Of a stretch of 64,000 nucleotides of DNA, positions 15,289-23,705 are shown piece by piece. The position numbers and the translations under genes were made by a program. Position 1 is the stretch's first letter. Every line of letters begins with the position of its first letter. Origin of the DNA: Spiroplasma endosymbiont of Diplazon laetatorius (GTDB lineage: Bacteria; Bacillota_I; Bacilli_A; Mycoplasmatales; Mycoplasmataceae); NCBI RefSeq assembly GCF_964019625.1, contig NZ_OZ026458.1:744001-808000 (forward strand). The letters are read 5' to 3'. The notes under the pieces were generated by a model. The model was not told the origin of the DNA, did not search any database, and saw nothing but the letters and a program-made list of their open reading frames with translations.

Positions 15289-15320
15289 TATTTTGATATA
15301 CAAACCAAGGAGTGAATGGT

Positions 15321-17603
15321 GTGAAAAAATTATTAACACTGTTAGGAAGTGTTAGTTTAATAACAACAACAGCACAAATGGCTGTTGCTTGTAGTCCAAA
15401 CTACGATCAAAAAGATAAAGACGGAAACTCAATTCTTATTCAATTTTTACAATCAATAGATGGTACAGCAAAAATTAGTACAAACGATGTTCTTGCTAAA
15501 TTAATTAATAAAGATGGTCCAAAAAATAAGGAAAAACTTACTTTAGACCTTTTAAAAATGATCAACCTTTCAATATTATCTAATGCAAAAGATAATAAAG
15601 ATATGATCAAGGAAGAAAGTATTTATACAAACGATGGTTTATCAGACATTTTAGTTAAAAAATGAGATGAACTAAGCTCTGCTGTTGATAGACAAATCAC
15701 AACAGAAAAAGATAAATACAAAAAAGAACACGGTAAAAAATGAGAAAAAGAATGAAATAAAATGCTTGTAAATAAATACAGCGTTTATCAAGATGACGTT
15801 AAATCTATGGATAAAGATTTCCTAGAAAACAAATATAAAGCAGATATCTTATTATCTGATTCAAATAATAATGCTTCAAAAACATTATTAGATGTTTTAC
15901 TTAAAACTGATCAAATGGGAGTTGAATGAATAACTCCAGATCAAGTTATTAGAAAATATAACGCACTATCTAAAGTAATTCGTGATGCTGGAGATAATGA
16001 CCAAATAATTGCAAATTACTTAAGATCAGATTTAGATCAAATAGCTCAAATAAAAAACTCAACTGTTAAAACAGGCGAAGAAAGTAAATGAGAAAATACA
16101 TCTTTAACTGCAGATAAATCTGATAAAGAACTTGCAGATGCAGCTAGAGAAGTTATTAAAACAAGCGTAAACGATATTAAATATGATGCCCCTGTTTCAT
16201 TAAATGAATTTACAATTAGTGGTAATAAAACAAGAGCTGGTTTCTTAAGTAATTCACAAAGATTCTTTTTAGATAAGTGATATAGTAACCAAGCTCCACT
16301 TGCAATAAGTGAAGTTGTAATACCTTTCTCTGAAGGTGGTTCTTTTGATAAAGGATTCACACAAGAAAGCTTTAAATCTAAAGATCAAAAAGATCAAACT
16401 AACTCAAACAATGTATTAGGTAGTGTAGAGGACGAGAAAGTTTGAAGTATGTGAATGAGATCAAACAAAGTTGATCAAAGAGAAGATGCTACAGTTAAGC
16501 ACTACGATAAACTTATGACTTTAAGTAATTCAACTGACTTTACTCAAGATATGAGAACAGTTGTTTATGATTATGTTTTAGGAAAAGATGCTTCATCTCA
16601 AATAGCAGGTGATGAAGATAAAAAAGGTATTAAAATTGAAACAGCTGACCTTAAAATTGAAACATTAATAGATAAAATAACAAGAACAAAAGACAAAAAC
16701 TTTTATGCATATAATGATAAGGGTCAAGTTTTCTATGTAGATTCAACTGGTCTTCACATCGTGAAGATAGATGGATATAAACTTCTAAAAGAAGGACAAA
16801 CTTCTAAAAATGGAAAAAAACAAGAAGGTATTGTTGAAAACAAAATAAATAATGAAACTTCTAAGGAATTAAACACTTTTAAAGAATTTAATAAATTAGA
16901 TGCAAATGCAAAAGTAGAAGCTCTTCAAAGTGATGGAGACATGAATAATGTTACATCAAACAAATACTACAAAGGTATGAACACAACTGTAACTAATGAA
17001 TATTTACATTATTTAGTTAATGTTTCTATGCTTAAAGGTTTACAAGGATCAGCTTCAAGCTTTGATATAATGGCAGAAGTTAAAAATTGAGCTCAAGTTA
17101 GTTCAGCTTCAGATTCTTCTTCAACATATTGAGCAACATGTGTTTTTGATTACTTCTTTAAAATATCAAAAACTATTTCTAATCAAAATGAATTTATTGA
17201 AAAATATATAACATTTGAAAAAAGCGATAACGAAACAACACAAGAAACTATTGATAGTACAAAAGAGTGATTTAACACTCAATTAAAAACTAAACAAGAT
17301 TGAATTGGACAAAGTTCATCAAGAGCATTTTATAATGCAAATACAAAATGAGCAGATGAAATAGAATCCAAAACAGTTGCAAGTAACTATCCAAGACAAG
17401 TTATTAGAAACTCATGATATGACGGAAAAATGGTTGAAAAAGTCGAAGGTCTTTGATGATCACCAACAGATGCTGGTGCTGGTCAAACAACTACAATGAC
17501 AAATCAATTTGTAAACGATTCAATAATTAGAAAAAATTATAATCTTGTTTACGGAAACATTGGGAACTATTATGATTTTTATAAAAATGGAGGTGCAAGA
17601 TAA
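15321..17603 (+). CDS. Large surface lipoprotein, P80-like (first of a pair upstream of hinT)
   Basis: A 760-residue lipoprotein read through many TGA(Trp) codons. The signal peptide starts MKKLLTLLGSVSL and ends in a lipobox AVAC, so the mature protein is lipid-anchored on the cell surface. The start chosen is GTG 15321, eight bases after AAGGAG (15307-15312); the GTG three codons earlier sits on that ribosome site. The mature part is Lys/Asn/Asp-rich and mainly helical, with no enzyme motif. It overlaps the next lipoprotein as TAATG, and a HIT gene follows. Size and order recall the P80 and P60 membrane proteins of Mycoplasma hominis, whose genes neighbour hinT. That homology is inferred from context, not alignment. 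Confidence 0.85.
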
Positions 17604-19345
17604 TGAAAAAACTACTAGGTATGCTGGGTGCTGTTTCATTAACAGTTGCTTCCCCTTCTCTTGTTGTTGCTTGTGGTACTAATCAAAGAATTACTAGTCC
17701 TAAGTTAAACAAAGATCTTGCAAAACAATTATTAGTTTCTATTTCTGGAAATAAAGACTTAGCAAATATAGACTTTGGTTCAATGTTTACAGATGCTGAA
17801 ATAGAATCAGTTATTGTAAATATGGTTAATGAACTATTATCATTACAATATTCATTTGATTCAACAAACGCAATGTATGAAAAATTAGGTTTTAAAAATA
17901 AATATACTTCTAACACAGAAACAGGAATTGAAGATGCCTTTAAACAAAGATATAGTTTAGAGTCAAGAACAGTTGCTGAAAACAAGTTATTTGAAGAATA
18001 TACAAAATCAATTAAAGGTGATCGTTTAGATTACTGAAGTGTTCAAAACAACTATAGTTTAAACATTAAAAAAGATACAACTGTAAAATCATTCGATGGT
18101 AAGGAAGATATTAAAGTAAGTAAAAAGTATTCTTCTATTTACTTTGGTGGTACAGGTGCTTCAAATATTTGAAGATTTACAAATGAATTAGCAAATAACA
18201 AAAATGCTAATTTACCTGAAATAACAGATTTAACAAAGGAATATTCAGGAGAAAAAAAAGCAAACTTTTATGTACAAGTGGGCGAAAATGATTTTAAAGA
18301 AATATCTTCTAAAACAGCTTTATATTTAAGATTTCAAGACTACTTCAATTCTAAATTACTTGAAGATATCAACGAAAACTTATTAACAAGCGCTTATTTA
18401 AAAACAAATATGTTTGACATTAAAAAAAGCAAAGATGAAAACAAAGGAGACAGTCCTTACATCAACCCTTCATCAGCTATTTTCAACAAAACTCAAACAT
18501 TGAATGATAAAGATGCTTGAAAAACAAATGTTAAAATGGTTTGAACAATGAGGTTTGATAATACAGATCCTAAGGTTGAAGTTGCAGTTTCAGATGCAAT
18601 TAGAGAACTAAACACTAAAATTGATAGTGCTACAGGTGCATTTAAATTTGATGACAACGGAAAAGGCAACACTGTTTCAGATGTTATGGATTCTATAACA
18701 CAAAAAGTTAGTGGAAAAGCAACTATAGTAAATGATACAAAAGCTGGATACGATTCATACTTTGGATTAAAAGGTTATCAAGGATTAACAATTTACAATG
18801 GAGACACTTCTTTAGGTGATAGCCCTATTTCAGGAAAAGCTTATGAAGCAAATATAAAAGCTTGAAATAAAGGAGCTGGAATTGTAAAAAGTGATAGAGG
18901 TTTCTTAACAAAAGATGCAGAAGACTCAAACTATGCTGACTTAGTATTTGTATTGCCAATTTATATGATTGAATTGTTAGGTGGATCAGATACAACAAGC
19001 ACATATAAAGTAAAAGGTAAAACAGTTGAAGGCAAAGAACCCGAAACTAAAGAAATGATTTTCAGTAATACAACTGGAGATGATAATATTTACATCGATA
19101 GATGAAATAGTATTAAAAACAAAGAATTACACACAGAAGATGTAAAAACTTTAGCGAAAAAACCAACATCACAAGAAGCTTTATTAAACGAAATCATGTA
19201 TGCAGTTTCAAAAGATACATCATCAAGCGATTTAGCTAAAACAGTTATCTATTCTAAATATTTAGATAAAGATGAAGTTTATTATGCAGGTCTTTGAGAT
19301 AAAATTGGAACTTACATCAAAAGTGAAGATGATAAAGACGATTAA
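17603..19345 (+). CDS. Surface lipoprotein, P60-like (second of the pair)
   Basis: A 580-residue lipoprotein with signal peptide MKKLLGMLGAVSL and lipobox VVAC. Translation is coupled to the upstream lipoprotein through TAATG. The two share a general layout: a helical N-terminal part, a block ending in a W-x-M-R-F/S-type segment (residues near 310, compare near 375 in the first), then a short beta-like segment with a GL-x-I core (compare TGLHIVKIDGY with QGLTIYNGD). They may be distant paralogues. A terminator separates this gene from hinT, but the order lipoprotein-lipoprotein-HIT is kept. Confidence 0.85.
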
Positions 19346-19811: not shown

Positions 19812-19841
19812 AAAAGGAAACTAATTAGTTTCCTTTTTTTC
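19812..19841. terminator. Bidirectional terminator between hinT and yhaM
   Basis: Stem GGAAACTAA/TTAGTTTCC with A and T runs on opposite sides. The last codons and stop of yhaM, on the other strand, lie inside the hairpin, so both converging genes share it. Confidence 0.85.
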
Positions 19842-20789
19842 ATAATGATTTAGATAACTTCTACCCTCTTCAGAAAGTATTCTTCCTGTTCAAGCACCTT
19901 TTTCAACTTTAGCAAGTTCATCATTTATCTTATAAATTCTTGCATCTAAAGCATCTAAAGATGAAATAATAACACCTTCTAATAAGTTTGGCTCAACTGG
20001 TGATCCATATTCATTTTTACCATGACTTGCAAGTATTACATGTTGTAGTTTTAAAACATCTCTATTGTTTTTTAAACCAAGCTCAATAGCTTTGTTTGAA
20101 ACAAAAGCATTACCTATTGAAATATGACCTAATAATCTTCCTTCATCAGTATATTCTGAAGCATTTTTTCCTGCCATTTCAACTACTTTTCCTATGTCGT
20201 GAAGAATAGTTCCACAATAAACTAATTCTCAATCCACATCAGCATATTTATAAACTTCTTTTATAGCTTTTGCACCCATCAACAATGAGTAACTATGTCA
20301 AAACAGTCCCCCTATTACGTTATGGTGAATACTTACAGCTGCTGGATATGATTTAAATTGTTCTTCATATTCTTTTATTATTGATAGTGTAATTTTTTTA
20401 TAAACTTCATTTGAAATAGAGTTTATAAATTCAACAAGTTTTTCATAGTTAGATTCAACATTTATAGGAGCACTTATACTAAACATTTCTTCTTTGATGT
20501 TGTGTTTTGCAAAATCCTCTTCTTTAATAACTTCATAAGAGTTAACTTTTAATTGTAATTGTTGTCTGTAAACATTTGTTGCAGCATCTATTTTTACAAT
20601 TACTCCATTTTTTAATTCTTCAACATCTTTATCAGTTGAATTTCAAAGTCTAGCCTCTATTCTTCCTGACATATCAACTAAGTTAATAATCAAATAATTT
20701 GATCCATTATTACCAGTTGATAATATAGTTTTCTCTATTCTAGCTATTAAAGTTACTAGTTTGCTATCTGCGTTAATTTGATTGATCAT
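19821..20789 (-). CDS. yhaM: 3'-5' exoribonuclease of the YhaM family
   Basis: A 322-residue protein with an N-terminal OB-fold (about 1-100, nucleic-acid binding) and a C-terminal HD domain. HD residues are seen in SIHHNVIGG, then WHSYSLL, then GTILHDIGKV (the HD pair), with a further HGKNEYG block. This layout matches B. subtilis YhaM, a 3'-5' exonuclease on RNA and single-stranded DNA. Start ATG 20789 follows GAGGAG. It is a single gene between terminators. Confidence 0.9.
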
Positions 20790-20821
20790 ATTCGTTCTCC
20801 TCAAAGATAAGTTAATTTTAA

Positions 20822-20855: not shown

Positions 20856-22901
20856 TTATATTAAAAATCCAGGATTTTTTAATATACTTATAAATTCTTT
20901 ACCAAACATTATTGCATCTTCTGGTTCCAACATATTTTGATTGAAAGCAAAGTTTACTTTTACAAAATTTGATAAGTTACCATCTTCTTTAAATGAGTTT
21001 GATATTGTTGAAATATATATTGAAACTATTGAGTCTTTTGATAATCCAAAACTTGCATTATCAAGACCTAAGTTTGATAAGTCATAAATGGTTACTTTTA
21101 AATCTTGATTATCAAACTTAATGTCTTTTGATATTTCTTTTGTTATATTTAAAATACTTGAATCTTCATTTACTTCAACAACTGTATCACTAATTGTAGC
21201 ATCATCTGCTTTAATCAATCTTACAAGTGATTGATTAAAATCTAATTCATTAAACTTAACAAGAGTCTTTTTAAGTGCTTTTACATAAAATGAATTTAAT
21301 TCTAAGTCGACTCCACTTTCCCTTAATGGTTCAACCATTAAAGTATGTAAACTAATAAGTGCTGTTATATCTAATTTGAAAGAGAAAGTACCAACATTAG
21401 TTTTATCAACTACCACAGTTTTTTCAGTAACATTAGAGTTATCTTTTGATTTATTTAAAGGCATTGATGAAACTTCTTTGATTTTGTCATCAAGATTTTT
21501 TATTTTTTCATCAACTCTTGCTAATAGCGAAGATATAGTTTTAGAACTTTCTTCTTTAGTATTAGTTATAAAGTTTGATACTTTTTCACTAACTTCTTTA
21601 AATTTGTTTTCGAATTGTTCCACACCAACTTCTTTATTTGAGTTTTCTAATTCTTCTTTTAATTTATTACTAAATTGACTAATTCTTGAATCAATGTCTT
21701 TTATTTTAAATTCAAGTTCTTCTTTTTGATTCTCAATATTATGGAATTTGTTTTCTAATTCTTCACTATTTTTTAAGATTTTTTCAAGTTTTTCATCATC
21801 AAATTCATGTAAGTAATCAAATTTAGGACCTTCATGGTTAAATCCTTCTTTATCTGCTTCCACTTTTTTTTCTAATTCTTTTTTCTCTTTATCAATTTCT
21901 GCTTTAACTTCATCAATAACTTCTTGATTTTCCTTAATTTTTAACTCTTCTTGTTCCTTATTTTCAGTCTCTAAAACTTCGTCTTCCATTTCTTTACCTT
22001 CAGATTCTGGTGTAAATTTAGATAAGAATTTTTGATTTGATACTTTTTCTAGAACTTGAGTTTCAGAAACCTTTGGATCATGATTTGAAAAGATTTCTAT
22101 ATCTTTTTCATCTTCAAATACTAAAGCATGATTTAAAGCCAATTCTTCTGTTATAGAATCTGCAACTGTTAATGGTTTTATATCCAAATGAACTATTGCT
22201 GTATCTGTTTTTTCATAAACTGGTGCTTCAAATACTTCAACTTTATTTTCTTGTTCTTTTTCGACAATGAAATCTTCAACTATTTTATCCATTGATTGTG
22301 TTTCACTTATTTCTTGTGCATTGTTAACGCTTAAGTAATCTAGACTTGATAATTCTTCAGTTAAAGAATCAGCAACTTCAATGTATTTTCTATCATCAAC
22401 TTTTTTAGTTATAATTTCTTCTTTTACATCAACTTTAAAGTCTTCGTTAATTTGATCTATAGAAACAGTTACTCCTACTTCTTCATATTCACCATCATTT
22501 AGGTGTTCAAGATCAGCTAATTCTTTTGTTAAAGAATCTGATGCATCTACAACTTTTTCCTCTGATTGTGTATCTTCATTTATTAGTTTTTCTAAGTAAC
22601 CAAACTCATTTAATCCTTCTTTTAAAGTATCATTAATGTTTGTTGGTTTTTTAAGTAAGCTATTTATCTCTTTATCTGAAAAAATATCAAAAACAGTGTC
22701 ACCGTGTGAAACTATTAATGATTCAATTACATATATATTTCTAATTACACCTTCAATTGTAGATGTTATTTCAAACTTCTCTAATTGAGTTGAAATTAAA
22801 GCAAGAACATCATCTTTTTTTACTGGTTGTCCTTCTTTAACAAAAACTTTTTCTACAATACCCTTATATTTTTTAGGATTTTTAAATTTGATTTTCTCCA
22901 T
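20856..22901 (-). CDS. Degenerate dihydrolipoamide acyltransferase-like protein with acidic repeats and coiled coil
   Basis: A 681-residue protein of unusual build. Residues 1-75 resemble a biotinyl/lipoyl domain, with LEKFEITSTIEG where lipoyl domains carry the DK turn. Residues 115-300 are acidic and contain a motif of the form ADSLTEEL three times (about 123, 178, 248). Residues 310-480 are a long heptad-rich coiled coil. Residues 500-681 look like the E2 catalytic domain: TFSFKLDITALISLH at the start, an end of the form ISILKNPGFLI. The catalytic HRxxDG is replaced by QNMLEP, so acyltransferase activity is unlikely. No pyruvate dehydrogenase genes are adjacent. It may be a structural relative of E2; its function is unknown. 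Confidence 0.75.
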   Translation of the reverse strand: MEKIKFKNPKKYKGIVEKVFVKEGQPVKKDDVLALISTQLEKFEITSTIEGVIRNIYVIESLIVSHGDTVFDIFSDKEINSLLKKPTNINDTLKEGLNEFGYLEKLINEDTQSEEKVVDASDSLTKELADLEHLNDGEYEEVGVTVSIDQINEDFKVDVKEEIITKKVDDRKYIEVADSLTEELSSLDYLSVNNAQEISETQSMDKIVEDFIVEKEQENKVEVFEAPVYEKTDTAIVHLDIKPLTVADSITEELALNHALVFEDEKDIEIFSNHDPKVSETQVLEKVSNQKFLSKFTPESEGKEMEDEVLETENKEQEELKIKENQEVIDEVKAEIDKEKKELEKKVEADKEGFNHEGPKFDYLHEFDDEKLEKILKNSEELENKFHNIENQKEELEFKIKDIDSRISQFSNKLKEELENSNKEVGVEQFENKFKEVSEKVSNFITNTKEESSKTISSLLARVDEKIKNLDDKIKEVSSMPLNKSKDNSNVTEKTVVVDKTNVGTFSFKLDITALISLHTLMVEPLRESGVDLELNSFYVKALKKTLVKFNELDFNQSLVRLIKADDATISDTVVEVNEDSSILNITKEISKDIKFDNQDLKVTIYDLSNLGLDNASFGLSKDSIVSIYISTISNSFKEDGNLSNFVKVNFAFNQNMLEPEDAIMFGKEFISILKNPGFLI

Positions 22902-22982: not shown

Positions 22983-23705
22983 TTAAATGGCATCTAGTAT
23001 CATTTTATTGTTTTCAGATATATCTAAAAGTCTTTTAAAACACTTATCAAAATTATTAGTTCTATTATAGTGCTCAATAGGTAAACCTTTACAACTTTCC
23101 AGCAATCCAACAGACAGTTTGCAAAAATCTAATAATTCACCTTTATAAGTTGGTAATATTGGCCCAAAACCTCTATATAAAAGCATTGAGTTAGCTATTA
23201 TGCTTAAAAAAGGTATTGTATATACACCTAATGGTTTTTCAATTGCGAAATAAATATATGTAATTAGTAAGTCCTCAATAAAGGCTTCAAGACTAGCTTC
23301 TTCGATTAAACTTTCTTCAAAAAAAATTATCATCTCTATTGTTTTGTTTTTACCAGTGGCCATATTTAAAAATACATGTTCATATTCTCCAGAAGAATCT
23401 AGCAACATATATACTTCTCTATAATTATTTACATCAAAAGATCACTTGTGTTCTCCTTCGTTTCTAAAAGTTTCTTTAGATTCTATTATTTTTAATCTTA
23501 TTAACTCTCAAATCCTTAGAAAGTTAATCAACTCTTTCCCATAAACCTCTATCGAATCATCAAGGAGGTATTGATCATCTGCTATTAATTCAAAAACTTC
23601 ATCTTCAGAAAATTCAAAATCTTTATAATAAGACATACTTGATACTAGTTTTGCTCCAATAGTGGATCACAATTCCTTATTTCTGTACAAAAAAATTACT
23701 TCCAT
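22983..23705 (-). CDS. Hypothetical protein, last gene of the metK cluster
   Basis: A 240-residue protein with no clear signal peptide and a moderately hydrophobic central part (about 145-185, around IEKPLGVYTIPFLSIIANSMLLY). It begins ATG GAA GTA at 23705, 23 bases after the trmFO stop, without a strong ribosome site, so it depends on the upstream genes or has another start. The N-terminal half is acidic. Two TGA(Trp) codons are read through. No family is recognised. Confidence 0.75.

Follow-up and report, generated by a model that had tools for sequence, protein, structure and literature searches.

An E2 acyltransferase paralogue lacking its catalytic residues in Spiroplasma, a possible oligomeric scaffold of the cell architecture

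Gene locus and genomic context

The 64,000-nucleotide stretch of DNA analyzed here (the window) comes from a genome of Spiroplasma type, 979,438 bp long, in which TGA encodes tryptophan. Its minus strand carries, at positions 20856 to 22901, the gene of a 681-aa protein, exactly where a first-pass annotation had placed it, with no internal stops under either translation table 4 or 11. The reading frame, its orthologues and a dN/dS of 0.16 identify the gene as that of a dead paralogue of E2 acyltransferase. The protein is named pseudo-E2-S here, and a 946-aa paralogue encoded outside the window is named pseudo-E2-L.

A yhaM-like gene on the same strand (19821 to 20804; OB-fold and HD domains by Pfam) adjoins pseudo-E2-S, and it does so next to the orthologues nearly everywhere, across clades. 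This conserved neighbor supports the orthology of pseudo-E2-S, which is secure even where sequence similarity is weak, but no functional link between the two genes is claimed. Upstream of pseudo-E2-S lies the gene of a 240-aa protein (22983 to 23705, minus strand), which is a neighbor in part of the genus only and gave no matches in a Pfam scan. The region at 15312 to 19345 encodes two large predicted lipoproteins side by side, adjoining the HIT and yhaM-like genes, as in most genomes of the genus. In the citri-type clade, genes for 558-aa proteins are located upstream of both pseudo-E2s; their products are similar in length but unrelated.

Domain architecture and loss of catalytic features

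The N-terminal domain of pseudo-E2-S (residues 1 to 78; 22668 to 22901, minus strand) is lipoyl/biotinyl-like, as originally proposed. Pfam Biotin_lipoyl (PF00364) matches residues 13 to 73 with 31.2 bits (cut-off, 22.1), profile-profile alignment with the lipoyl domains of true E2s gives an E value of 4e-15 (hhalign), and a PDB search with the profile of this head returned lipoyl and biotinyl domains. The lipoyl lysine is replaced by Leu40 (codon at 22782 to 22784, minus strand), which is aligned without a gap in the profile alignment and in the sequence alignment. Lysine is found in this column in none of 35 aligned sequences, and the lysine hairpin of the lipoyl domain has given way to an STQ-containing stretch. 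The E1/E3-binding domain (PF02817) is absent from pseudo-E2-S; across 60 genomes of the family it occurs at most once per genome and always within the true E2.

The C-terminal domain (residues 501 to 681; 20859 to 21401, minus strand) is E2-core-like. Profiles were needed for its recognition, because the core was missed by single-protein Pfam and NCBIfam scans, as well as by a search of its own genome with PF00198. A core profile built from 16 orthologues aligned with the true E2 cores of the family over 177 columns with 97% probability and an E value of 3e-11 (hhalign), compared with 0.1% for an unrelated control. With the same profile, hmmsearch of all PDB chains gave an E2 core as the best match (E = 8e-9), and 10 of the 12 matches were E2-type proteins, including E3BP. 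Furthermore, Pfam itself detects the core of pseudo-E2-S in the citri-type clade (148.8 bits).

A structural model of the core predicted with five homologous rows had a pLDDT of 83 and a pTM of 0.84, although these rows were E2-type sequences and the model is thus not independent of the alignment; prediction without homologous rows gave a pLDDT of 38. E2 cores ranked first when the model was searched with Foldseek, and a structural aligner superimposed it on E2 cores over all 181 residues (Z = 21.6; root mean square deviation, 2.5 Å), with the human E3BP core among the structural matches. The lipoyl-like and E2-like domains suggested in the first-pass annotation are borne out by profile searches, in which the head was found by Pfam and the core by the orthologue profile, and, for the core, by structure prediction. 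Pseudo-E2-S is descended from an E2 acyltransferase.

The site of the catalytic HRxxDG motif is occupied by QNMLEP (residues 655 to 660; 20922 to 20939, minus strand) in sequence and profile alignments. The DHKVIDG of true E2s pairs with N654-Q655-N656-M657-L658-E659-P660 in the profile alignment, reproducing the replacement already noticed by eye and placing Q655 and E659 at the positions of the catalytic His and Asp. An intact motif elsewhere in the protein would have contradicted this assignment, but a scan of complete pseudo-E2-S for HxxxDG found no occurrence. E2 chemistry is not expected of a protein that has neither the HRxxDG motif nor a lipoyl lysine and is devoid of an E1/E3-binding domain. 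Among the most invariant segments is the C-terminal NPGxLI, which lies near the contact site between trimers in known E2 cages.

Head and core are separated by a linker (residues 79 to 500; 21402 to 22667, minus strand), originally described as an acidic coiled coil with acidic repeats. Its acidity is clear (26% D+E versus 14% K+R), whereas support for a coiled coil is moderate: the best heptad-like stretch, at residues 368 to 409, was equalled by 2 of 60 shuffles. The repeats correspond to three copies of DS[LI]T[EK]EL, compared with 0.0004 in shuffles, found by motif search on the minus strand: DSLTKEL (residues 122 to 128; 22518 to 22538), DSLTEEL (residues 178 to 184; 22350 to 22370) and DSITEEL (residues 248 to 254; 22140 to 22160). 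A relaxed, DSxTxEL-type motif is present in 15 of the 20 orthologues of the genus (0.2 in shuffles). The persistence of so short a motif in an otherwise poorly aligning linker suggests that it is a putative docking site.

Conservation and selection

Within the genus, a single pseudo-E2-S orthologue is present in all 20 genomes, and the gene is also found in three further genera of the family (g3, g5 and g9). Orthologues range in length from 479 to 856 aa. The catalytic His and the lipoyl Lys are lost in every aligned orthologue, and the catalytic Asp is lost in the clade of the source genome. In comparisons with two relatives, dN/dS was 0.05 for the head, which is the most conserved part of the protein, 0.17 for the linker and 0.15 to 0.20 for the core. 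Judged by these ratios, pseudo-E2-S is under strong purifying selection. Such constraint already contradicts the reading of pseudo-E2-S as a decaying relic without function, for which there is next to no probability: the linker does evolve fast, and the gene is broken in one genome, but single-copy orthologues occur across the genus with conserved synteny.

True E2 and a second pseudo-E2 family

The first-pass annotation had called for a check that the genome encodes a second, intact E2, and one is present. This true E2 (439 aa, at approximately 901.3 to 902.6 kb of the genome) has retained both the DHKVIDG motif and the lipoyl lysine, and its gene is adjacent to that for lipoamide dehydrogenase. 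In one genome of the genus (G012), the true E2 (L098) resembles those of a genus lacking MreB (g2) far more than the E2s of related genomes, a pattern suggestive of horizontal transfer.

Pseudo-E2-L (approximately 843072 to 845912 in the genome; L078:5072-7912) accounts for the second match to PF00198 and likewise seems not to be an enzyme. It combines a lipoyl-like head that lacks the lysine with a long linker and an E2 core, in which VDQRTIDA replaces DHRVIDG (HRxxDG to QRTIDA); the catalytic His is replaced by Q in all 21 members examined. The heads of the two pseudo-E2s are related (hhalign, 95.9%; E = 6.5e-9), and the pseudo-E2-L core, with a mean column identity of 79%, is far less diverged than that of pseudo-E2-S. 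In a tree of core sequences, true E2s, pseudo-E2-L and pseudo-E2-S each formed one supported group, and the monophyly of both pseudo-E2 families indicates that both are old.

A predicted membrane protein of 417 to 440 aa (L078:8078-9349; homologues in L109-L121, L162 and L163), for which no Pfam family was matched, usually adjoins pseudo-E2-L. It is conserved and present also in the reduced genus g10, whose pseudo-E2-L proteins are headless (656 and 533 aa; L162:2043-4013 and L163:2454-4055); these genomes of 0.7 to 0.8 Mb retain MreB and a diverged Fib.

Inheritance relative to pyruvate dehydrogenase

No pyruvate dehydrogenase (PDH) genes had been noticed near pseudo-E2-S. This holds in the source genome but does not extend to the citri-type clade, where the orthologue is located just upstream of the PDH operon. 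Proximity to PDH genes, the nature of the protein as an inactive E2 paralogue, and the presence of the human E3BP core among its structural matches would all fit an accessory PDH subunit, similar to E3-binding protein, that is incorporated in the E2 core or attached to it. The distribution of the genes across the family provides a comparison with this possibility.

Four genomes, all of the citri-type clade (G123, G149, G173 and G189, the last being S. phoeniceum P40), lack the true E2 and with it the E1/E3-binding domain. A good match to E1-alpha is absent from three of them and truncated in the fourth. Nevertheless, pseudo-E2-L is kept in all four and pseudo-E2-S is intact in three; in G173, where pseudo-E2-L is intact, pseudo-E2-S has been reduced to a remnant (L160:794-1697) with its N-terminal part gone and its core frameshifted. 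Conversely, neither pseudo-E2 is found in any of the 18 genomes without a strong MreB set, yet 16 of these encode an E2 core. Persistence without the true E2 and absence from 16 E2-bearing genomes lacking the MreB set argue that pseudo-E2-S probably does not belong to the pyruvate dehydrogenase complex. The missing lipoyl lysine and the confinement of E1/E3-binding domains to true E2s also argue against an accessory subunit, which we consider improbable.

The same distribution bears on a regulatory role in which pseudo-E2-S would bind lipoate-protein ligase, acyl-CoA or lipoylated proteins as a decoy, with no turnover. Retention of the lipoyl-like domain as the most strongly constrained part of the protein and the position near PDH genes in the citri-type clade would fit such a role, but the protein is kept where PDH has been lost and the hairpin that would present the lysine is replaced. 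A decoy ranks as very improbable, below an accessory subunit.

Drosophila-associated strains of the Citri clade have been reported to contain a pseudogenized pdhA and to lack pdhB and pdhD, while pdhC was "complete" (PMC12453411). Annotators should be aware that a gene labelled "pdhC" in Spiroplasma may in fact encode a dead paralogue, and these strains would fit such a case.

Association with MreB and cell shape

All 42 genomes of the family with a strong MreB set contain pseudo-E2-L, the two from genus g10 in the shortened, headless form. Pseudo-E2-S is intact in 37 of the 42, broken in 1 and not found in 4, one of which is incomplete; it is thus not indispensable in MreB-bearing genomes. 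In an RpoB tree, every genome of the family that lacks MreB falls into a single clade (support, 99/99), and the association of the pseudo-E2s with the MreB set therefore amounts to a single co-loss event and is suggestive only. The pseudo-E2s do not follow Fib: in two genomes (G010 and G083) a break divides the fibril gene into two reading frames (L150:1288-2828 and L151:784-2346), while the MreB set is kept and both pseudo-E2s are intact.

Published lists of proteins from isolated ribbons and from the Triton-insoluble fraction of S. eriocheiris name neither pseudo-E2 and show no E2-like protein (PMC9582952, PMC5289999), and the latter report assigns no protein to the core of the tip dumbbell. 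The mass of SPE-1201, a ribbon protein of S. eriocheiris labelled "hypothetical", made it a candidate orthologue, but it was rejected because its published description gives 769 aa and two transmembrane segments.

A possible scaffold in the cell architecture

The first-pass annotation had proposed that the protein kept the E2 fold for a structural role. Independent tests back its E2 ancestry, its dead site and the presence of a further, intact E2 in the genome. Among the readings a structural role has the most support, because the protein is conserved although its catalytic residues are gone, is kept without PDH and is absent where MreB has been lost. Pseudo-E2-S is an E2 paralogue that lost its catalytic features and its E1/E3-binding domain but retained, by prediction, the E2-core fold. 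The core may still assemble in the E2 manner, as trimers or as a larger cage, and the acidic and in part coiled-coil arms, with their putative DSxTxEL docking motif, would project from it together with the lipoyl-like heads. Such an assembly could gather partner proteins as a multivalent hub and form part of the MreB- and Fibril-based architecture of the helical, wall-less Spiroplasma cell. We regard the chances as evenly balanced that a dead E2 core has been re-used in this way, as an oligomeric scaffold in the cell architecture.

The same anatomy predicts a hub whatever its cargo, and pseudo-E2-S could instead be a scaffold or adaptor for another process, such as cell division, chromosome partition, membrane attachment or metabolic clustering. 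The membrane protein often encoded beside pseudo-E2-L could point to the membrane. Co-loss with MreB, albeit in one event only, and conservation across Spiroplasma favor the cell architecture, and a scaffold for another process seems to us distinctly less likely, though a good deal less remote than an accessory PDH subunit.

A more specific version of the architectural scaffold includes both paralogues: two duplicated PDH cores would have become structural hubs, alone or together forming E2-type assemblies that organize the MreB/Fibril ribbon or the core of the tip dumbbell. At this level of detail the proposal is speculative and rather unlikely to hold in full. If the pseudo-E2s form trimers or cages, the tip dumbbell and the ribbon anchoring of the swimming machine would gain concrete candidate genes.

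Comparison with known systems

No published description of a Spiroplasma pseudo-E2 was found in a literature search that had most subscription literature outside its scope. E2 acyltransferases (PF00198 core, PF00364 lipoyl domain and PF02817) and pseudo-E2-S share the order of lipoyl-like domain, linker and core, and the same core fold. Pseudo-E2-S differs in that the His/Asp motif is gone, as are the lipoyl lysine and any E1/E3-binding domain; its linker of approximately 400 residues is acidic and contains motif repeats. Pseudo-E2-L and pseudo-E2-S both have a lysine-less lipoyl-like head, a long linker and a core in which the His is replaced, but pseudo-E2-L is a separate old family with a less diverged core and is often found beside a membrane protein.

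To our knowledge, the inactive E2 paralogues described so far, exemplified by E3BP, are subunits of their parent complex. Pseudo-E2-S and the eukaryotic E3BP are both E2 paralogues with an inactive core and an E2-like topology. E3BP, also called PDHX or protein X and belonging to the PDH of mammals and fungi, has an E3-specific binding domain among its criteria (PMC10156792). It functions inside PDH, whereas the bacterial pseudo-E2-S has no such domain and outlives PDH. By these tests, pseudo-E2-S appears not to be an active E2 enzyme, nor does it appear to be an E3BP. Spiroplasma, a bacterium, contains two old families of dead E2 paralogues, whose inheritance is uncoupled from the parent complex and which persist where that complex has been lost.

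A parallel in use is the Spiroplasma Fibril protein (Fib), which likewise goes back to a metabolic enzyme (a nucleosidase) and now serves in the cytoskeleton. The folds are unrelated, and Fib filaments are directly evidenced, whereas pseudo-E2-S is known here from sequence and a structural model. If pseudo-E2 trimers or cages do form, they would represent a second metabolic enzyme, after Fibril, to have been turned into Spiroplasma cell architecture.
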